A stretch of DNA of 64,000 nt from Gymnodinialimonas sp. 57CJ19 (GTDB taxonomy: Bacteria > Pseudomonadota > Alphaproteobacteria > Rhodobacterales > Rhodobacteraceae): positions 532,001 to 596,000 of the forward strand of contig NZ_CP151587.1 of assembly GCF_038396845.1 (NCBI RefSeq), in the 5' to 3' direction. Made by a program: the position numbers and the translations under genes. The notes beneath the pieces are model-generated. The model had not been told where the DNA came from. It made no database searches and saw only the letters and a program-made list of their open reading frames with translations. Below are positions 40,796 to 49,941 of this stretch, piece after piece (position 1 is the stretch's first letter; the number at the start of each line of letters is the position of its first letter).

Positions 40796-41485
40796 TCAGG
40801 CAGCCTTTGGATTCGCGATCCTGAAGGAAGGATAGATCCCGGCAAGCTCGGGGAATGCGATGTTGGCATGGGGCACCTCGTCCACCGGGCCGAACACCGG
40901 GGTGCGGGCAAGAACGGCCGCGCGCTGCTCTCGCACCTTGGCGGTGAGAAGCTGGATCGGCTTCTTCAGGCCCGGATAGCTGCGAGGTTCTGACACGATC
41001 TCGTACCCCAGGTACCGACGGTAAAACGCCGAATGCTCGGCCCGCACAGGGGCAAGGGCCAGGTCGATGTCATAGAACATCGTGGCAAGGAACGGGATGC
41101 GCAGCGCAAGAAAGTGCAACGGAACGCGGCGCTTGCGGGCGGCAGGGTCGATCACGAAACGGGTCGAATCCAGCGCCGTTTTACTAAGATTGATGTCGTC
41201 CATGATCTCGGGGAAGACTTCCAGCGTCGGAGAGGCATAGGAAAGCTGGGACAAAAGATGCAGCCGGACAGCGGCGAAGATCTCTCCGTCGTATTCAACC
41301 GCGACGTGGACGCAGTTCGGGGTTTCGTCGAACGGGTCCGTCATCATCTGCCGCTCATTCGCGGGAATGGACTTTTCGGCGCGGTAACAATTGTAGCGCA
41401 GGCGGTACACGTCCTCGAGGTCTTGGTCCGAGCTCAGCACCCGGTAGCGAGCGCGTTTGAGTGCTTCGATGACTTGATTATTCAT
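40796..41485 (-). CDS. N-acyltransferase of the FeeM/LuxI-like GNAT type
   Basis: This 229-residue protein carries the features of N-acyl amino acid synthases and, more distantly, acyl-homoserine-lactone synthases. YRLRYNCYRAEKS near 27-39 and TDPFDET at 49-55 stand for the substrate-binding loop. Next come GEIFAAVRLHLLS at 67-79 and DSTRFVIDP at 106-114, the counterpart of the ESRF block of LuxI. Such enzymes take an acyl chain from acyl-ACP. The ATG at 41485 is preferred because GAGG lies 6 bases upstream; 41491 is in frame. The preceding methyltransferase gene overlaps it by 8 bases. Its substrate is unknown. Confidence 0.68.
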   Translation of the reverse strand: MNNQVIEALKRARYRVLSSDQDLEDVYRLRYNCYRAEKSIPANERQMMTDPFDETPNCVHVAVEYDGEIFAAVRLHLLSQLSYASPTLEVFPEIMDDINLSKTALDSTRFVIDPAARKRRVPLHFLALRIPFLATMFYDIDLALAPVRAEHSAFYRRYLGYEIVSEPRSYPGLKKPIQLLTAKVREQRAAVLARTPVFGPVDEVPHANIAFPELAGIYPSFRIANPKAA

Positions 41486-42272
41486 GGTCATCCTCGCCCG
41501 TGCCTACCGGTGCCCGGCACACCAAAAGGTCGCTGTAGCCGCGATACACCGTGTCTTCGCGGTGGATTTCAAACCCCGCCGCCGTGACAGCCGACGCGAG
41601 TTCTTCCGCACTATGGGTCCAGTAGACACCCTTTTGTTGCGCGTCGTAGATCGCGGAATTCTGCTTGGCGATTTCGCGCCCTTGCCAGAAAATCCGCAAA
41701 GCGCCCAACAAGCCGTGCTTGGCCTTGATGCTGCGAAACAGGTAGCGGCGCCAATCGGCCACATCCATGTCGCGCCCCAGGTCCACAAGGAACAGCCAAC
41801 CGCCGGGCCGGAGCAATCGGCGCAGATCCTTCAGGCGCTGTTGCGGATTTGGCATCGCGTAGATCGCGTGAACGCAAACGATCAGGTCCGCCTGATGGGA
41901 TGGCGAATAACTTTCGAGCGCGACATTGTCGTAGGTGATATTTGGATGCGCCGACATTTTGGCTTTTGCCGCGGCAATCATGCCGGGATCGGGTTCGGCC
42001 AGATGTATTTCGGCGTCGGGGCAGGCAATCGCCGCCCTTTCGGTGTAATTTCCCGTGCCCCCGCCAATGTCATAAATCAGCTTTGGCGTTTCAATTGAGG
42101 CGAGGAATGTATCGAACGATGCAAGGATCGCCTGATACTCTGGATTGTGTTCAGACAGCAGATCATATGCCGTGGCATAGGCGCTCCAATCGGCCCGCAC
42201 CGATTGGTCTGCTGTTTCTGATTGATAGACGTCAAGGGGCATTGCCCCGTCAGCGTGAGCGCGTGACGGCAT
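41478..42272 (-). CDS. Class I SAM-dependent methyltransferase
   Basis: This 264-residue protein has the SAM-binding motif LIYDIGGGTGNYTERAA, an acidic LAEPDPGM at the end of the second strand, and LRRLLRPGGWLFLVDLG. The ATG at 42272 (GGAG 9 bases upstream) is chosen over a TTG at 42287. It overlaps the acyltransferase start, so the two are translationally coupled and probably modify one product. The likely substrate is small, because the family (UbiE/Methyltransf_11 type) acts on quinones, lipids and natural products. Confidence 0.85.
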   Translation of the reverse strand: MPSRAHADGAMPLDVYQSETADQSVRADWSAYATAYDLLSEHNPEYQAILASFDTFLASIETPKLIYDIGGGTGNYTERAAIACPDAEIHLAEPDPGMIAAAKAKMSAHPNITYDNVALESYSPSHQADLIVCVHAIYAMPNPQQRLKDLRRLLRPGGWLFLVDLGRDMDVADWRRYLFRSIKAKHGLLGALRIFWQGREIAKQNSAIYDAQQKGVYWTHSAEELASAVTAAGFEIHREDTVYRGYSDLLVCRAPVGTGEDDHE

Positions 42273-42854
42273 GGGAAGAGTCTCCAAAATTCAACTGCGT
42301 GCGAATGAATATGCGACTCGTTACCCTGCCCAAAATGTGCCTTCAGATTGCCACATTTGCAAGGCCATTTCAGGGGCGCGCGTCCTTTTGGTCGCTGATT
42401 TTACTCAATAAATGATGAGTCAGCAAAATAGGAAACCCGCAAATATCACAGCGTTTCCTGGTGTTTTCGAAGGAAAAGACGCGCGGACCTCGACGTCGCA
42501 AAACGTGGCGTAAAAATGGCAAAATTGTCAAAAATTAGGCAATATTTTCATCGACGGGCCGGAAAACAGCCCCATTTATCGGAGAGCAATGAGGCAGCGC
42601 GATGGGCGCAGCAACGTTGGAGTCGGTATGAAAGTCGAATCTATCTATGGGGATCCGGTCACTCTGTATCTTATCGCTCATTTCGTGGGCTTCGCCCCTC
42701 ATGACAACGTCAACGCCGCCCCTTCCAACCGCGTGATACATGCAATGCGCCGCAAGGCCGCGAAGGAATAGGTCGCGCCCTTCGCCAAAGAATTCTGCGC
42801 CAGATGCGCGGCGTACTTTACAGAAGCGATCACGACAGGCTCTAATCGGGGTCA
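42273..42854. promoter_or_regulatory. Divergent control region of the two biosynthetic operons
   Basis: These 582 bases separate the methyltransferase-acyltransferase operon from the flavoprotein-PKS operon. The centre (about 42410-42560) is clearly AT-richer than the surroundings and contains AATTGTC and AATATTTTC strings. Two short frames (42516-42704, 42589-42771) look accidental. The length is unusual for two small operons and leaves room for regulator sites or a small RNA, but I cannot assign any. Confidence 0.5.
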
Positions 42855-44093
42855 ATGGAAGACCCACCAAACCCGCCCCAGACCTGCGATGTCGTCATTA
42901 TTGGCGGCGGTCCGGCTGGGTCGACCATGGCCGCCCGACTGGCGGAAATGGGGCTGGATGTCGTGCTGTTCGACAAAGACGTGCACCCAAGGTTCCACAT
43001 TGGCGAAAGCCTTTTGCCCCGAAACCTGCCGATTCTTTCGCAGCTTGGCGTGCTAGACGCGGTCGAGGCGATCGCGGTCAAGAAGTTTGGGGCCGACCTT
43101 GCCCTGCCCGACCGCGAAGATTACCGAAAGTTCGAATTCGCCGAGGCCAACCCAAGTCACCCCCACGCTTTTCAGGTCAAGCGGGCAGAGTTTGACCACC
43201 TGCTGCTGCAAAACGCCCGCAAGGCCGGGGCCCGGGTCATGGAAGGGGTTCGGGTTAAGGACATTAACTTTGAGCCGGCTGAAAGCGTTAACGTGACAGT
43301 AGATGGGGCCAAGCCCGTTTGGCAGGCGCGGTTCGTGGTGGATGCCAGCGGGCGGGACACGTTTCTGGCCGCACGCATGAAGACGAAAGAGCGCGACCCA
43401 AACCACAACAGCGCCGCCGTGTTTGCCCACTACCAAGGCGTGCAAAGACGCCCCGGAACCGACGCAGGCAACACCAGTGTCACCTGGTTTGAGAACGGGT
43501 GGTTCTGGACGATCCCGCTGTCGGAAGGTGTCGATAGCGTGGGGGTCGTGTGTGACCCGGAATTCCTGAGGACCCGCAAAGGCCCCTTGGACGAGTTTCT
43601 GTCTGAAACCATCGCCTCTTGCCCGCAGATGCGCCACCGGATGGCCGACGCACATCCGATCTCCATGGCGCAAGCGGCGGGCAACTTTTCGTACAAATCC
43701 AATAGGATGCATGGAGACCGTTACCTGTTGATCGGCGATGCCTACGCCTTCTTGGACCCGATGTTCTCCACAGGTGTATATTTGGCGATGGAAAGCGCGA
43801 TGCGGGGGGCAGAGGCCGTGCATACCTTCCTGACAGAGCCCGAAACAGGTCGCCTGAAGCTCGACGCGCATGTCATCAGCATGGAGCGCGGCTTGGGGCG
43901 GTTGTCGTGGTTTATCTACAAGTTCAACACGCCTGCGACGCGGAAACTTTTCATGTCGCGTCTCAACCCCCTGAACATGCGCAGAGAGGTCATCAGCCTG
44001 CTGGCCGGCGATGTCTTTGGGCGCAGGTCCGGCGGTATCGGGGTGCCCGCTTTCAAGCTGGCTCATCGGTTACTCAGCGTCGTGTTGCGATAG
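42855..44093 (+). CDS. FAD-dependent oxidoreductase with halogenase-type motifs
   Basis: This 412-residue flavoprotein has the FAD loop VVIIGGGPAGSTMA (residues 13-26), GESLLPRN (50-57), and VKKFGA (75-80), which may hold the lysine that carries halide in flavin halogenases. WFWTIP follows at 216-221, a full WxWxIP motif, and GDAYAFLDPMFSTGVYLAM (294-312). Tryptophan-halogenase-like enzymes share these, but some relatives are hydroxylases or reductases. The type III PKS gene begins 121 bp downstream, so a role in tailoring its phenolic product is likely. Halogenation is a hypothesis; hydroxylation, as in known phenolic lipid flavoproteins, is the alternative. Confidence 0.78.
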   Translation: MEDPPNPPQTCDVVIIGGGPAGSTMAARLAEMGLDVVLFDKDVHPRFHIGESLLPRNLPILSQLGVLDAVEAIAVKKFGADLALPDREDYRKFEFAEANPSHPHAFQVKRAEFDHLLLQNARKAGARVMEGVRVKDINFEPAESVNVTVDGAKPVWQARFVVDASGRDTFLAARMKTKERDPNHNSAAVFAHYQGVQRRPGTDAGNTSVTWFENGWFWTIPLSEGVDSVGVVCDPEFLRTRKGPLDEFLSETIASCPQMRHRMADAHPISMAQAAGNFSYKSNRMHGDRYLLIGDAYAFLDPMFSTGVYLAMESAMRGAEAVHTFLTEPETGRLKLDAHVISMERGLGRLSWFIYKFNTPATRKLFMSRLNPLNMRREVISLLAGDVFGRRSGGIGVPAFKLAHRLLSVVLR

Positions 44094-44214
44094 GGCGCCC
44101 GGATGCAGAACCCGCCAAGACCCAAGGAAAGCTGGCTAATTTTCGATTTGCTGTTAACGCTTGAAGGGTAACGGGCATTTCCCCAAGCGACCCGAACCCC
44201 ACGAAGGGCCCTTC

Positions 44215-45279
44215 ATGACGACACCCTATCTGCACGGCCTTTCTACCGCACTTCCGCCCCATTGCCTGTCGCAAGACGATGTGCGCGAACGCGCTGCGAT
44301 TATTTTTGGCGGCAAATACCCGCAGTTTGACCGCCTCGCGAAATCCTTCGAGACGGCGGGCATTGACCAGCGCCACTCTGTCGTTCCGATCGACTGGTTC
44401 TCGGAGGATCACGGGTGGGAGGACCGCAATGCCGCTTTCATGGTTGGGGCGAAGGCAATGTATATCGAGGCCGCGCGACGCGCCCTTGACGCGGCGGGCT
44501 GGCAGGGTGCGGATGTGGATTGCGTCGTGTCCGTATGCTCGACCGGTTTGGCCACGCCGACGCTGGACGCTCAGGTCTTTTCAGACATGGGATTTCGCCA
44601 GGATATCATGCGCGTGCCGCTATTTGGCCTGGGCTGTGCGGGGGGCGTTTCGGGCCTGTCGGTGGCGCAATCCATCGCGGCGGGAAAGCCCGGCGCAAGG
44701 GTGCTGCTTGTGGTGGTCGAGACCTGCTCTCTCTCGTTTCGGGCGGACCGATTGCAGAAGGCAGACATCATCGCGGCGGTCCTGTTTGGCGACGGGTCTG
44801 CGGCGGCCTGCGTCAGCACGGAAAAGCCAAAGAACGGCAGCGTTATCGCGCTTGGGCAGGGGCATCAGACGATGTGGCCCGACACGCTTGGAATCATGGG
44901 GTGGGACGTGGACGAAACTGGTTTTGGCGTGGTCTTTGACCGCTCCATCCCCGGTTTCGTGACCGAGGAATTTGCCGAAGCCGCGCAGGGCGCATTGACC
45001 GCCGCAAACCTGACCCATGATCAGATTGACCGCTACGTCTGCCACCCCGGCGGGGCGAAGGTCGTGGAGGCCATTGAGGGCGCGTTGAACTTACCACAAG
45101 GCTCGCTGGTGGCGGAGCGGGAGACTCTGCGCGCTGCCGGAAACATGTCGGCGCCCACGGTGATGTTCGTGCTGCAATCGGTGCTGGACGCTGGCACCAC
45201 GGGGCAAATGATGGCCTGCGCGTTGGGCCCCGGCTTCACGGCGTCATTCCTGCCGTTTCAGGTGGAGGCCGCCGCGTGA
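44215..45279 (+). CDS. Type III polyketide synthase
   Basis: This 354-residue protein is a chalcone/stilbene-synthase-like type III PKS. The catalytic triad is intact: Cys141 in GLGCAGGVSG, His277 in CHPGGAKVVE and Asn310 in AAGNMSAPTV. Bacterial enzymes of this type extend fatty acyl starters with malonyl-CoA to alkylresorcinols or alkylpyrones. The ATG at 44215 is chosen with CGAAGGG just upstream; the frame extends to 44161. The last bases overlap the next gene, a membrane methyltransferase, by 4 (GTGA), as in the BpsA-BpsB and SrsA-SrsB pairs. Confidence 0.93.
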   Translation: MTTPYLHGLSTALPPHCLSQDDVRERAAIIFGGKYPQFDRLAKSFETAGIDQRHSVVPIDWFSEDHGWEDRNAAFMVGAKAMYIEAARRALDAAGWQGADVDCVVSVCSTGLATPTLDAQVFSDMGFRQDIMRVPLFGLGCAGGVSGLSVAQSIAAGKPGARVLLVVVETCSLSFRADRLQKADIIAAVLFGDGSAAACVSTEKPKNGSVIALGQGHQTMWPDTLGIMGWDVDETGFGVVFDRSIPGFVTEEFAEAAQGALTAANLTHDQIDRYVCHPGGAKVVEAIEGALNLPQGSLVAERETLRAAGNMSAPTVMFVLQSVLDAGTTGQMMACALGPGFTASFLPFQVEAAA

Positions 45280-45764
45280 CCGCAACATATCTGTTCCTCG
45301 GCTTCATCATCCTGCAACGCCTGAGCGAGCTGTTCATCGCCAAACGCAATACCGCGCGTCTTCTGGCACGAGGCGCCTATGAAGTGGGGGCCGCGCATTA
45401 CCCTGCCATGGTCGCCATGCATTCGGCCTGGATCATCTGCCTTGTTGTCTTTGGCTATGACAATTCGGTGGCTTACGGCTGGCTGGCCATCTTCGCGGTG
45501 CTACAGGTCTTGCGGGTGTGGATCTTGGGCAGTTTGGGCAGTCGCTGGACCACAAGGGTCATCATCTTGGAAGAGCCATTGGTCGTGCGCGGGCCGTTCA
45601 AATACGTGTCGCATCCCAACTACATGCTTGTGGTGGCCGAGATCATCGTCGCACCGATGGTACTGGGCCTGCCATGGGTAGCGCTGGTGTTCACCGTTCT
45701 GAACGCCGCGATGCTGTGGGTGCGGATCGGGGTGGAGCACAAGGCCCTCGCGCCCCTACGCTAG
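45276..45764 (+). CDS. Isoprenylcysteine-methyltransferase-like membrane protein
   Basis: This 162-residue membrane protein has about four hydrophobic segments and the ICMT/PEMT-type SAM motif RGPFKYVSHPNYMLVVAE. Relatives next to type III PKS genes (BpsB of Bacillus, SrsB of Streptomyces) O-methylate alkylpyrones or alkylresorcinols. The GTG start overlaps the PKS stop by 4 bases. The substrate here is inferred from this context. Confidence 0.86.
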   Translation: MTATYLFLGFIILQRLSELFIAKRNTARLLARGAYEVGAAHYPAMVAMHSAWIICLVVFGYDNSVAYGWLAIFAVLQVLRVWILGSLGSRWTTRVIILEEPLVVRGPFKYVSHPNYMLVVAEIIVAPMVLGLPWVALVFTVLNAAMLWVRIGVEHKALAPLR

Positions 45765-45841: not shown

Positions 45842-46192
45842 ATGGCTGTAAAACGATTGCTGACGGAATTTGGCATGGGCAGTTCGCTGCGCCGCCAAGA
45901 TTACACCCAAGCCGCTGAACGCGCTGTCAAAGGTGCTTTGTGGCACAACTCCATCAATCTGGCAGAGCTGTTCGGGAAGCAGAAGGAAGAGATGCAGATC
46001 ACCGTAGAAGTCGGCGTTCAGAACCCCGATGCGTTGGAGACCGACAAGATCGCCGCGATCTTCCCCTATGGGCAGGTGACAGTCATTCCAAGACAGGGCG
46101 GGTTGGACGTGCCCCGCAATGATGGCGGCAAACCAACGGTCATCGCCAACGTCGCGATCTCTGTTGCCTTGGAACTGGGAGAAACCCCATGA
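45842..46192 (+). CDS. Lin0512-family protein, first copy
   Basis: This 116-residue protein reads LLTEFGMGSSLRRQDYTQAAERAVKGALWHNSI, then QITVEVGVQNPDAL and IFPYGQVTVIPRQGGLDVP, the pattern of the Lin0512 family, whose function is not known. It has no signal peptide. It starts with an ATG 78 bp after the ICMT-like gene, behind GGGAGGG. Its last bases overlap the start of a second, similar protein. The two share the RQDYT/GQDYT and GGLDV blocks, so they arose by tandem duplication and may form a heteromer. Confidence 0.8.
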   Translation: MAVKRLLTEFGMGSSLRRQDYTQAAERAVKGALWHNSINLAELFGKQKEEMQITVEVGVQNPDALETDKIAAIFPYGQVTVIPRQGGLDVPRNDGGKPTVIANVAISVALELGETP

Positions 46193-46545
46193 GCGAGCAG
46201 CGTTTCATCATCGAAATGGGCATGGGCAACGATCAATATGGCCAAGATTACACCAAGGCTGCCGCCCGCGCGATTGAAGATGCCATCCGCCATTCCGCCA
46301 TCCCGATGTTCGAGGCAACGGGCCTGTCGTCGGACCAGATGCGGGTGCAGGTCACGGTGGGGGTGCAGGCGCCCGAGCGTGTCGATTGCGCGGCGCTGGC
46401 CGAGAACCTGCCACGGGGCCAAGCGACGGTGACAGCGGTGCAAGGTGGGTTGGACGTGACGAACCCTGACACCGGCAAGGTGTTGGTCATCGCCTCTGCC
46501 GCGGTAGAGGCGTTCTTGCCGAAACAGGCCGAGAAGGCCTCCTGA
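46189..46545 (+). CDS. Lin0512-family protein, second copy
   Basis: This 118-residue paralogue of the preceding protein reads FIIEMGMGNDQYGQDYTKAAARAIEDAIRHS, then VQVTVGVQAPERV and ATVTAVQGGLDVT. Length and order of blocks match copy one. The start overlaps the stop of copy one by 4 bases, implying coupled translation. The TetR-family gene follows 33 bp downstream in the same direction. Confidence 0.82.
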   Translation: MSEQRFIIEMGMGNDQYGQDYTKAAARAIEDAIRHSAIPMFEATGLSSDQMRVQVTVGVQAPERVDCAALAENLPRGQATVTAVQGGLDVTNPDTGKVLVIASAAVEAFLPKQAEKAS

Positions 46546-46578
46546 GAGGGGGAAGCCGCGCCTGTTGACAGAACGACA

Positions 46579-47169
46579 ATGGGCGTGAATATGTCGCCCA
46601 TGACCACCAGACTGTCCGAAAAAGAACGCCAGATTGCCGCCGCCGCCCTGCGTGTGTTCACGCGTTATGGCCTGAAGCGGACGACGATGAGCGATGTCGC
46701 GGAAGAAGCCGGTGTTGTGCGCCAGACGCTCTATAACGTCTTTGCGAATAAGGACGAAGTGATCCACGGGACGTTGCTGTATTACACGGAAATGCTCCGC
46801 AAAACGACGTTGGACGCCTGGAAGGGCGAAAGCGATCTTTCAATCAAGCTCGACCTATTGTTCGAGCATTATATCGTCGCATCTTGGGATGCGGTCCGGG
46901 CGACGCCCGACGCCGGAGACCTCGAATCCGGTTCTCACGCAGCGGCCGAGCGGGCCATGGTCGCCGCAGAAGCTGCGCTTGATAACATGCTGGCCGATCT
47001 GTTCGCCCCCCATGCCGACGCCTTGGCGCGGAATGGGCAGAACGTGGCGGATTTCGCCCCGTTCGTACGCGCGGTCCTGATGGGGTTCAAACACAAGACG
47101 AGGGACCGCGATGCCCTCCTGAAAAATCTGGCGGCGTTCAAGGCCCTGGTCGTACTCTCCACCACCTGA
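46579..47169 (+). CDS. TetR-family transcriptional regulator
   Basis: This 196-residue protein has an N-terminal TetR HTH: ERQIAAAALRVFTRYGLKRTTMSDVAEEAGVVRQTLYNVFANKDEVI in order. An all-helical ligand domain follows. The start could be at 46579 or 46591 (both ATG). It reads toward the iorAB genes, and a palindrome within the iorA promoter is a candidate operator, so regulation of the molybdenum hydroxylase is the best guess. The ligand is unknown. Confidence 0.92.
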   Translation: MGVNMSPMTTRLSEKERQIAAAALRVFTRYGLKRTTMSDVAEEAGVVRQTLYNVFANKDEVIHGTLLYYTEMLRKTTLDAWKGESDLSIKLDLLFEHYIVASWDAVRATPDAGDLESGSHAAAERAMVAAEAALDNMLADLFAPHADALARNGQNVADFAPFVRAVLMGFKHKTRDRDALLKNLAAFKALVVLSTT

Positions 47170-47187
47170 CAAGCAATTTTACACTTC

Positions 47188-47216
47188 TTGACTATTTGTC
47201 CAAATCGGGCAATATC
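47188..47216 (+). promoter_or_regulatory. Candidate promoter and operator of iorAB
   Basis: TTGACT (47188-47193) and AATATC (47211-47216) are separated by 17 bases, a good sigma-70 pattern. The spacer contains the palindrome ATTTG-TC-CAAAT (47194-47205), placed where a TetR-type repressor would block RNA polymerase. Confidence 0.55.
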
Positions 47217-47238
47217 GCGCCAACTTTTGGAGGTCGAT

Positions 47239-47697
47239 ATGCGCTTGAACGTGAACGGTGAGGTAAAAGAGGTCGATGTCGCGCCAGACATGCCGCTTCT
47301 GTGGGTCTTGCGCGAAGAACTGAACATGCCGGGCACGCGCTATGGCTGCGGCGTCGCGCAATGTGGCGCTTGTACGGTTCATATCGACGGGCAAGCCATG
47401 CGGTCCTGTCAGATGCCAGTGGGCGACCTGGAAGGGGCGCAGATCACCACCGTGGAGGGGTTGGCACAGGCCGACACGCTGCACGCCGTGCAACAGGCCT
47501 GGATTGACCATCAGGTGGCCCAATGCGGCTACTGTCAAAGCGGGCAGATCATGCAGGCCGCCGACCTGCTGTCCACCACGCCGAACCCGACCGACGAAGA
47601 TATTGATTTCGCCATGTCCGGCAACCTGTGCCGATGCGGCACCTACCCGCGTATCCGTGCTGCGATCCACGCCGCCGCCCGCGCGATGGAGGGTTAA
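47239..47697 (+). CDS. iorA: [2Fe-2S] subunit of a periplasmic molybdenum hydroxylase (IorA type)
   Basis: This 152-residue subunit binds two [2Fe-2S] clusters. The plant-type site uses Cys37, 42, 45 and 57 ([14 protein letters not shown]), and the second uses Cys96, 99, 131 and 133 (CGYCQSGQ and NLCRCGTY). It transfers electrons from the molybdenum site of the large subunit to a carrier. The ATG at 47239 has GGAGG directly upstream. It lacks its own signal peptide; partner IorB carries a Tat signal and would export the complex. IorB starts 3 bp after the stop. Confidence 0.94.
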
Positions 47698-47700
47698 GGG

Positions 47701-49941
47701 ATGAGCAAGCTCAAGACCTTCACCCGCCGCGCCTTCCTTGTCGGCTCTGCCGCTGTTGCAGGGGGCGTCGCCTTTGGCGCGTATCTGGTTGTTCGCGATC
47801 CAGAAAACCCAAACCTTCAGAACCTGCCCGAGGGGGCCGCGTCGTTCAATCCATGGGTGCGCATTGACGCCTCTGGCGTGACGCTAATCACCCCGCACGT
47901 CGATATCGGGCAAGGGGCCGTGTCCATGCAGGCCGCCTTGATTGCCGAAGAAATGGATCTGGAATGGGGCGGGTTCAATGTCGATTTCGGCCGCCCTGCC
48001 CCGGCCTATTGGAACACGGCCATGGCCGCAGATGGCGCGCCGGTTCTGCCTTGGGATGACAGCTTTGGCGCACGTGCCATGCGATCTACGATGGGCGGTC
48101 TGCTGAAGGTTATGGGGATGCAGGGCACCGGCGGCTCGTCCTCTACGCCCGATAGTTTCGTGAAACTGCGTGAAGCTGGCGCGATGGCCCGCGAGACGCT
48201 GAAAAGCGCGGCCAGCGCGCGCACGGGCGTTGCCGTGGCTAATCTGCGCACCGAAGCGGGGGCGGTTCACCTGCCCGACGGCACGGCGATTTCTTATACC
48301 GACCTTGCCGCTGAAGCCGCGCAGATTGATCCGGTGCAAGACACGCCGCTGCGCGACCCATCCACGTGGCGCCTGATCGGCCATGATATGCCGCGCCTTG
48401 ATATTGAAGCGAAATCCACCGGCCAGCCGATGTATGGCATCGACCTGGAGCTACCGGGCATGGTGCGGGCCAGCGTGCGGGTGAACCCGCGCAAGGGGGG
48501 CTCCCTGAACGGGTTTGACGCCACGGCGGCCGAGGCGATGCCCGGCGTGGAGCAGATCCTGGAGATCCCCGGCGGCGTTGCGGTGATTGCCACCAATACG
48601 TGGTACGCCATGCAGGCGCTCGATGCGATTTCCTACGACTGGGGCCCTGCTGATTATCCGGCAGAGCAAGCCGCCCATTGGGCAGCTCTGGAGGATAGTT
48701 TCACCGAGGAAACCCTCGACAAGGAATGGCTCAACAGCGGCGATGTGGAGGCCGATATGCCCGGCGCCGAGGTGCTGGAGGCCGAATACCGCGCCCCCTA
48801 TGTGGCACACCAACCACTAGAGCCGCTGAACGCCATCGTGCTGGTGGAAGACGACAGCGTGCAGGTCTGGACCGGCCACCAGATGCCCCGCTTCCTGCAA
48901 CAACAGGTGGCCGCCATTACCGGCCATGACGCGGACCAAGTGGTATTCCACAACCAATATGCGGGCGGCTCGTTCGGACATCGACTGGAGTTTGACTACG
49001 TCAAACAGGCCACCCGTGTTGCGATGCAGCTACGTGGCACCCCAGTTAAGATTATTTACAGTCGAGAATCGGATTTCGCACAAGATTTTCCAAGGCAAAT
49101 CACCATGGGCCGTGCCCGAGGTGCGGTGCGCGATGGGCAGGTCATCAGCTACGACACGCAGATCGCGGCCCCTTCTGCCATGCGCTCGCAGATGGCCCGC
49201 CTCGGCCAGCCGCTGCCCGGGCCTGATGGCCAGCTTGCTGCTGGTATCTGGCAGCAGCCCTACGGGTTTGAGAATGTGCGCATGCGCGGCTACGCGGTCG
49301 AGGGGCTTTCGCCCGTCTCGTCGTGGCGGTCGGTCGGGGCCTCGGCCAACGGCTTTGTCGGCGAAGGCTTTCTGGATGAGTTGATCCACGCCGCCGGGGC
49401 CGACCCGCTGGCAGAACGCATACGTCTTTGCACCTTGGACGACGTGAGCCGCCGCGTTCTGGAAGCCGTCGGAGAGATGTCCAACTGGGGCGAGGCACTG
49501 CCCGAAGGCACGGGCCGCGGCGTTGCTCTGGTGCATTCCTTCGGCGTTCCCTGCGCCGAGGTGGTCGAGGTGACCAACACCGAAAACGGCATCCGCCTGG
49601 ACCGCGTCTGGGTCGCCGCAGATGTGGGCCGTGTCGTGGACCCGGTGAACTTCGAAAACATCGTGAAGGGCGGCGTCATCTGGGGCCTTGGCCACGCGAT
49701 GAACTGCGAGATCACCTACACTGACGGCATTGCGGATCAGACGAATTTCCATTCTCACGAGGGGATGCGGATGCATCAGGTGCCCGAAATCTTCGTGCGT
49801 GGGTTGGAAAACGGCGGTGTGCGCGGGATCGGAGAACCCCCTGTTCCGCCTGCTGCCCCTGCCCTGGCGAACGCGATTTTTGCCGCCACCGGGCAGAGGT
49901 TGCGGGAAATGCCGTTCTGGAACCACGTCGATTTCGTCTGA
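47701..49941 (+). CDS. iorB: Molybdopterin-binding subunit of an isoquinoline-1-oxidoreductase-like enzyme
   Basis: This 746-residue protein starts with a Tat signal (TFTRRAFLVGSAAVAGGVAFGA) and belongs to the xanthine dehydrogenase superfamily, IorB branch. Visible blocks include the substrate and cofactor segments PHVDIGQGAVSMQAALIAEE, GGSFGHRLEFD, and near the end GVRGIGEPPVPPAAPALANA, whose glutamate is the likely catalytic base. It hydroxylates an N-heterocycle or aldehyde in the periplasm. No FAD subunit gene is present, which fits the IorAB type that passes electrons to a cytochrome. The substrate cannot be told. Confidence 0.92.
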   Translation: MSKLKTFTRRAFLVGSAAVAGGVAFGAYLVVRDPENPNLQNLPEGAASFNPWVRIDASGVTLITPHVDIGQGAVSMQAALIAEEMDLEWGGFNVDFGRPAPAYWNTAMAADGAPVLPWDDSFGARAMRSTMGGLLKVMGMQGTGGSSSTPDSFVKLREAGAMARETLKSAASARTGVAVANLRTEAGAVHLPDGTAISYTDLAAEAAQIDPVQDTPLRDPSTWRLIGHDMPRLDIEAKSTGQPMYGIDLELPGMVRASVRVNPRKGGSLNGFDATAAEAMPGVEQILEIPGGVAVIATNTWYAMQALDAISYDWGPADYPAEQAAHWAALEDSFTEETLDKEWLNSGDVEADMPGAEVLEAEYRAPYVAHQPLEPLNAIVLVEDDSVQVWTGHQMPRFLQQQVAAITGHDADQVVFHNQYAGGSFGHRLEFDYVKQATRVAMQLRGTPVKIIYSRESDFAQDFPRQITMGRARGAVRDGQVISYDTQIAAPSAMRSQMARLGQPLPGPDGQLAAGIWQQPYGFENVRMRGYAVEGLSPVSSWRSVGASANGFVGEGFLDELIHAAGADPLAERIRLCTLDDVSRRVLEAVGEMSNWGEALPEGTGRGVALVHSFGVPCAEVVEVTNTENGIRLDRVWVAADVGRVVDPVNFENIVKGGVIWGLGHAMNCEITYTDGIADQTNFHSHEGMRMHQVPEIFVRGLENGGVRGIGEPPVPPAAPALANAIFAATGQRLREMPFWNHVDFV

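Follow-up and report, generated by a model that had tools for sequence, protein, structure and literature searches.

Can a common two-gene route to lipid polyketides be diversified by the attachment of one further enzyme? This question is raised by three consecutive genes in a stretch of 64,000 nucleotides (hereafter the window) from Gymnodinialimonas sp. 57CJ19, contig NZ_CP151587.1, positions 532,001 to 596,000. They encode a flavoprotein resembling halogenases dependent on flavin adenine dinucleotide (FAD), a type III polyketide synthase (PKS) and a membrane methyltransferase of the ICMT family (Table 1). A first-pass annotation had placed three open reading frames (ORFs) here on the + strand, the last two with a 4-base overlap; both points were confirmed, the PKS stop and the ICMT start sharing the bases GTGA. 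All domain assignments (Trp_halogenase and FAD_binding_3; Chal_sti_synt N and C; ICMT) score above the curated Pfam cut-offs. We give about an even chance to the reading that the locus combines a lipid polyketide pair of the bpsA-bpsB kind with a recruited halogenase, with halogenation, methylation and ring type being predicted. The trio is viewed in this way because the PKS and ICMT genes recur together, whereas the flavoprotein gene is confined to one group.

The PKS has the domains of the chalcone-synthase fold and the Cys-His-Asn triad, which places it among the type III enzymes. Read from the ATG at 44215, which is preferred to the TTG at 44161 where the mechanically called ORF opens, Cys141 lies in GLGCAGG, His277 in YVCHPGG and Asn310 in AAGNMSA. 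These residues, already picked out in the first annotation, are invariant across 32 aligned rows (window counted). The whole genome contains a single PF00195 match. The closest relative of solved structure is Mycobacterium Pks11, an alkylpyrone synthase (181.8 bits, 28-29% identity). In the fold comparison Pks11 was tied with other type III PKSs, and the structure model is middling, with a predicted local distance difference test (pLDDT) value of 77.5. Because Pks11 is nearest by sequence and tied by fold, and the model is middling, these comparisons do not discriminate between a pyrone and a resorcinol ring.

The distribution of the PKS gene showed with which partner it belongs. Among 248 genomes of the same family it was matched in 17 (E <= 1e-20), two of these matches being merely 32% identical, and the ICMT gene in 16, namely the same 15 genomes that carry the closer PKS and one with a remote match of 30%. 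The two genes are adjacent in all 15 closer-PKS genomes, the genome under study counted and the PKS of G018 being a fragment. In a sample of 394 family genomes the PKS was found in 21 (E <= 1e-40; the G018 fragment falls under this threshold and is outside the 21), and ICMT adjoins it in 19 of them, again counting the own genome. The exceptions are a truncated PKS in G681 and a locus in G762 that stops 58 bases past the match, presumably at a contig end. Since this adjacency recurs in 19 of the 21 family genomes with the PKS it is not due to chance, and the pair is the conserved core of the locus. It is also plasmid-borne, in Sulfitobacter indolifex (pDSM14862_d), Marinovum algicola (pMaD4), Phyllobacterium sp. 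628 and Rhizobium sp. BG4; for R. etli p42d the gene table, known to be incomplete, shows no ICMT neighbour of the PKS. Decaying copies of the pair are present in four family genomes (loci L024, L026, L038 and L103): besides the reduced PKS genes of G018 and G681, G188 has a PKS gene with two stops and an ICMT gene with one, and the ICMT gene of G066 is interrupted by two stops. The PKS match in G107 showed one stop in one search and none by tblastn of the matched part.

A known system of this kind is the bpsA-bpsB operon of Bacillus, which also has two genes including a type III PKS, and in which BpsB is an ICMT-like methyltransferase. In the window, too, the PKS gene is directly followed by an ICMT gene and the two are kept as a pair; the pair is likened to bpsA-bpsB by gene layout, not by sequence. 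The products of bpsA-bpsB are alkylpyrones, some of which bear a 4-O-methyl group, and no halogenase-type flavoprotein is named for this operon in the part of the paper that was available (PMC5686519; here and below, statements from the literature refer to the retrieved portions of the cited papers).

The flavoprotein points in another direction. Its top Pfam match is Trp_halogenase (104.9 bits), ahead of FAD_binding_3 (74.9 bits), and its best sequence matches in the PDB are Mpy16 (5buk), FasV (8zop), ChlB4, PltA and CmlS. It contains GxGxxG, the catalytic lysine (K77), WxWxIP (W216xW218xI220P221) and FxxPxxSxG (F299xxP302xxS305xG307). The columns of the last three features are invariant in 35 aligned rows, save P221, which is Ala in two, and in the alignments K77 falls on a lysine of Mpy16, PltA and ChlB4. 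WxWxIP, FxxPxxSxG and the lysine are features named for the halogenase RadH (PMC10377541), and Lys87 is essential in the phenol halogenase PltM (PMC6424973). With the AlphaFold2 model (pLDDT 88.9) the top fold matches were mostly halogenases: FasV scored 47.2, 3nix 46.9, Bmp2 46.6, ChlB4 45.8, PltA 45.5, Mpy16 44.7, CndH 41.0 and RadH 40.8, with lower values for the hydroxylases HspB (38.4) and PnpA (37.6), for CmlS (37.0) and for PHBH (about 35.8).

Several observations weigh against a halogenase. The second fold match, 3nix, is without a stated activity, and CmlS sits among the hydroxylases in the fold ranking. The flavoprotein stays under every NCBIfam cut-off, the top model CmlS giving 217.1 bits (cut-off 900) and QhpG 194 bits; QhpG is itself a hydroxylase of halogenase-like structure with two tryptophans in its channel (PMC7876137). 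Because motifs and folds favour a halogenase and these points count against it, we consider a halogenase likelier than a hydroxylase, though not certain. An "oxidised or halogenated" lipid had been suggested initially; the placement of the flavoprotein in the FAD halogenase branch argues for the halogenated option, the product itself being predicted.

Whether the flavoprotein travels with the pair was examined in the same 394 genomes. A close copy was found in the own genome only, three others matching at 37-41%, so the trio is present in one of the 21 genomes with the PKS. No flavoprotein neighbour of the PKS was seen in 13 further PKS loci that are intact or almost so (12-13 kb each); for the seven loci added later, with about 1.5 kb on each side, its absence rests on at most four scored candidates per genome. 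The conservation of the trio in relatives, proposed earlier as a check, thus holds for the PKS and ICMT genes, nearly always found side by side, and fails for the flavoprotein gene, which almost never stands next to the PKS. Within the genus (13 genomes) the PKS occurs in two, the own genome and G255, and the flavoprotein in the same two; one congener out of 12 therefore has the trio. Its order in G255 is complete at 96-97% identity, and the spacer has the same 121 bp (locus L048: flavoprotein match to 11179, stop to 11182, PKS from 11304). In global searches, where the best 120 matches of each protein were listed, six PKS/flavoprotein entry pairs had a longest contig of identical size; judged by this equality, six further database contigs appear to carry the trio. 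Flavoprotein relatives at 62-73% identity stand without a PKS. The flavoprotein is a local addition, confined to one group.

How often it was added was considered with two trees. The flavoprotein tree contains 41 of the 120 listed matches and leaves out L040, L044, L068, L070 and G255, the gene being masked by another ORF at L068 and L070. The eight trio rows group with P0123 (89/92), and this fork is nested in one of 11 rows (100/100) to which P0129 and P0130 (about 73% identity) also belong; P0130 and L044 have equal contig sizes, and no PKS was found at L044. Next out come rows including L045, a metagenome-assembled genome of Hyphomicrobiaceae, and L046, with the aryl-polyene rows outside. 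When the trio is set against nine aryl-polyene rows only, one change is needed in 100% of 200 bootstrap trees, a count that ignores 41 ungrouped rows. A single recruitment would fit this tree. The PKS tree (69 of the 120 listed matches, 14 family loci and three plasmid loci, leaving out L024 for its stops, L038 as a fragment, and G255) is less accommodating. Here all eight trio rows share a group of 10 rows (87/84) with P0002 and P0005. By strict count the trio label takes three changes; two are required by starred branches, and a single change was obtained in no bootstrap tree. This tree allows a single recruitment only if P0005 is a trio locus or has lost the flavoprotein; it neither demonstrates nor rules out such an event. 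Two of the rows, P0001 and P0121, were called trio by closeness to the window alone (96 and 93%). At 1839 and 1328 bases, respectively, the P0002 and P0123 contigs cannot accommodate the two genes in full, and the P0005 contig (3665 bases) may be cut, so that the trio status of these three rows is not assignable. A recent clean insertion between conserved flanks was also considered but not borne out: no empty site was found in the congener G248, in which the right flank is conserved and the 9.9 kb read gave no match to window genes left of the right flank, from 36530 on.

The wider family of the flavoprotein leads to other clusters. Of 385 alphaproteobacterial genomes it matched 12 at E <= 1e-60, own counted. 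Among the 11 loci besides the own one (42-51% identity), eight contain relatives of the ketosynthase, chain-length factor and/or MMPL proteins of annotated aryl-polyene-type loci, a label assigned by gene content; L072 has a glycosyltransferase relative only, and L071 and L075 have none. No ORF picked in these 11 loci (9-16 kb read) had the window PKS or ICMT as its best match. On plasmids of Azospirillum ramasamyi and Roseomonas haemaphysalidis the flavoprotein gene is surrounded by ketosynthase, chain-length factor, FabG and MMPL genes, and in Polaromonas (L047) it occurs with ketosynthase, chain-length factor and FabG. A flavoprotein of Azoarcus olearius (P0224) is 50% identical to that of the window. 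The aryl-polyene cluster of Azoarcus BH72 lists arcA as a halogenase, halogenation of arcuflavin itself being unstated in the accessible text (PMC3949708), and the xanthomonadin clusters of two Xanthomonas species include a halogenase gene, with pigments carrying 0-2 Br (PMC3691225). The likeness to such clusters (ArcA, the xanthomonadin halogenase) lies in flavoproteins about 42-51% identical to that of the window. The difference is that the window flavoprotein adjoins a type III PKS and lacks aryl-polyene partner genes: no relative of ketosynthase, chain-length factor, MMPL or FabG was detected in the 64-kb window (E 1e-6; L052/L053 proteins as queries). In the same family as the window, G004 carries a flavoprotein relative (41%) close to a gene resembling a ketosynthase (L039:5935-11772); this may be a cluster of aryl-polyene type, rare in the family.

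On the recruitment reading, the PKS would load a fatty-acyl starter on Cys141, extend it with two or three malonyl-CoA units and release an alkylpyrone or alkylresorcinol, as its family would suggest. The membrane-embedded ICMT-like enzyme may then O-methylate a ring hydroxyl, on the pattern of bpsA-bpsB. The flavoprotein, supplied with FADH2, would generate HOCl or HOBr, relay it over Lys77 and halogenate the electron-rich ring. The FADH2 would come from a flavin reductase encoded elsewhere; Flavin_Reduct has four matches, none within the window. Halogenation of type III PKS products has precedents in PltM acting on phloroglucinol (PMC5395296) and in ChlA of the DIF-1 pathway (PMC7259674).

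The same genes can be read differently. The flavoprotein could be a hydroxylase of halogenase fold that oxidises the methylated ring to a methoxy-(hydro)quinone lipid, following the srs logic. The scores of QhpG and CmlS in NCBIfam (194 vs 217 bits) and the methylated polyketide quinones made by an srs-homologous cluster in Mycobacterium smegmatis (PMC5916927) speak for this; nevertheless, with Lys77, WxWxIP and FxxPxxSxG conserved throughout, or almost throughout, the 35 rows, and halogenases as the top named enzymes by sequence and by fold, we consider it unlikely. Less probable still is that the flavoprotein is a mere neighbour with another aromatic substrate, next to a plain PKS-ICMT lipid pathway. 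The pair lacks the flavoprotein in nearly all genomes seen, relatives of the flavoprotein at 62-73% do without a PKS, and 121 bp separate the two genes, but strand, order and spacing are the same in G255, and probably so in six more contigs.

A set of the srsABC/hidABC type, with PKS, methyltransferase and FAD hydroxylase inherited together, is highly improbable. The three broad enzyme classes are the same, and SrsC is of the FAD_binding_3 hydroxylase class. A layout of this type does exist in the family: in G047 (L036:2963-5900) a PKS, a Rossmann methyltransferase and a FAD_binding_3 flavoprotein follow one another with 4-base overlaps, and G229 (L037:5941-8872) is similar, with a methyltransferase domain and a FAD oxidoreductase protein. 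These PKSs are 28-32% identical to the window PKS (31-32% for L036), and the L036 flavoprotein, unlike that of the window, has no Trp_halogenase match. We reject srsABC membership because the flavoprotein class differs, because the flavoprotein is not co-inherited with the PKS, and because gene order and both partner families depart from L036, which served for the comparison in place of SrsC/HidB sequences. Of the two models named in the first-pass annotation, BpsA-BpsB was therefore sustained by the conserved pair (19/21) and SrsA-SrsB-SrsC abandoned. The hidABC operon (hierridins) and an operon of Planctomycetota likewise unite methyltransferase, oxidoreductase and type III PKS; their order is methyltransferase-oxidoreductase-PKS or hidC first, whereas the window has flavoprotein-PKS-ICMT, and the retrieved portions name no halogenase within either operon (PMC8086630, PMC10896814).

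A comparable enzyme set acts in Dictyostelium, a eukaryote, where the DIF-1 genes are unlinked and the methyltransferase is of another class. There a PKS with a chalcone-synthase part (StlB), a flavin-dependent halogenase (ChlA) and a methyltransferase (DmtA) act on one molecule (PMC7259674, PMC9489281). A bolder form of the recruitment reading, which we put somewhat below an even chance, is that the trio forms an operon whose products are alkylpyrone or alkylresorcinol lipids both halogenated and O-methylated, in which a phenol halogenase of aryl-polyene type was spliced onto a mobile PKS-ICMT pair. Such an operon would parallel the DIF-1 enzyme set in a prokaryote, and brominated or chlorinated phenolic lipids of seawater might stem from it. 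Among the literature matches listed, open-access titles and abstract beginnings mention neither an operon of type III PKS, ICMT and halogenase-type flavoprotein nor, with regard to the earlier remark that such lipids are little described in marine Rhodobacterales, a product name for that group.

What is new is modest: the two-gene PKS-methyltransferase pathway is of a known kind, and the novelty lies in the attached halogenase-like flavoprotein. If the recruitment reading is true, it illustrates how one added halogenase can diversify a common two-gene lipid pathway in a marine bacterium, and the three genes would be a compact set for testing which enzyme can halogenate type III PKS products. 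The trio would bear on the same question in hierridin C, which is chlorinated by a mechanism given as unknown (PMC8086630). Some genomes carry the pair and others the trio, a natural contrast that makes the part of the halogenase directly testable.

Table 1. Coordinates of the trio and adjoining features in the window
Feature	Position	Strand	Basis or remark
AT-richer gap between divergent methyltransferase gene and flavoprotein gene, 567 bp	42288-42854		GC 0.513 vs 0.62 in window
Flavoprotein, FAD-dependent halogenase-like, 412 aa	42855-44093	+	Pfam, motifs, AlphaFold2 model
Spacer from flavoprotein stop to PKS ATG, 121 bp	44094-44214	+	
Type III PKS, 354 aa	44215-45279	+	PF00195, PF02797
ICMT-family membrane methyltransferase, 162 aa, GTG start	45276-45764	+	PF04140, 74.2 bits
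First Lin0512 gene	45842-46192		

The GC content of the flavoprotein, PKS and ICMT genes (0.60, 0.63 and 0.60; window 0.62) gave no signal of a foreign segment in base composition. The gap upstream of the flavoprotein gene is presumed to be a promoter region; a scan for the sigma-70 consensus found no site in it, and the promoter/terminator scan was uninformative.

Upstream and divergent from the flavoprotein gene, overlapping genes for a FeeM-like N-acyl amino acid synthase (PF21926, 136 bits) and an S-adenosylmethionine-dependent methyltransferase occupy 40796-42287 on the - strand. They are also kept beside the trio in G255, and a second acyl-lipid pathway adjoining the trio is possible. 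A link of these two genes to the trio was rejected, as no match to them was found in 16 other family PKS loci. After the trio, 45842-49941 holds two tandem genes of the Lin0512 family, a TetR regulator, a 2Fe-2S protein and a large oxidoreductase. This block is kept without the trio in the congener G248 (L092), and a Lin0512 gene is present in 11 of the 13 genomes of the genus, own counted.
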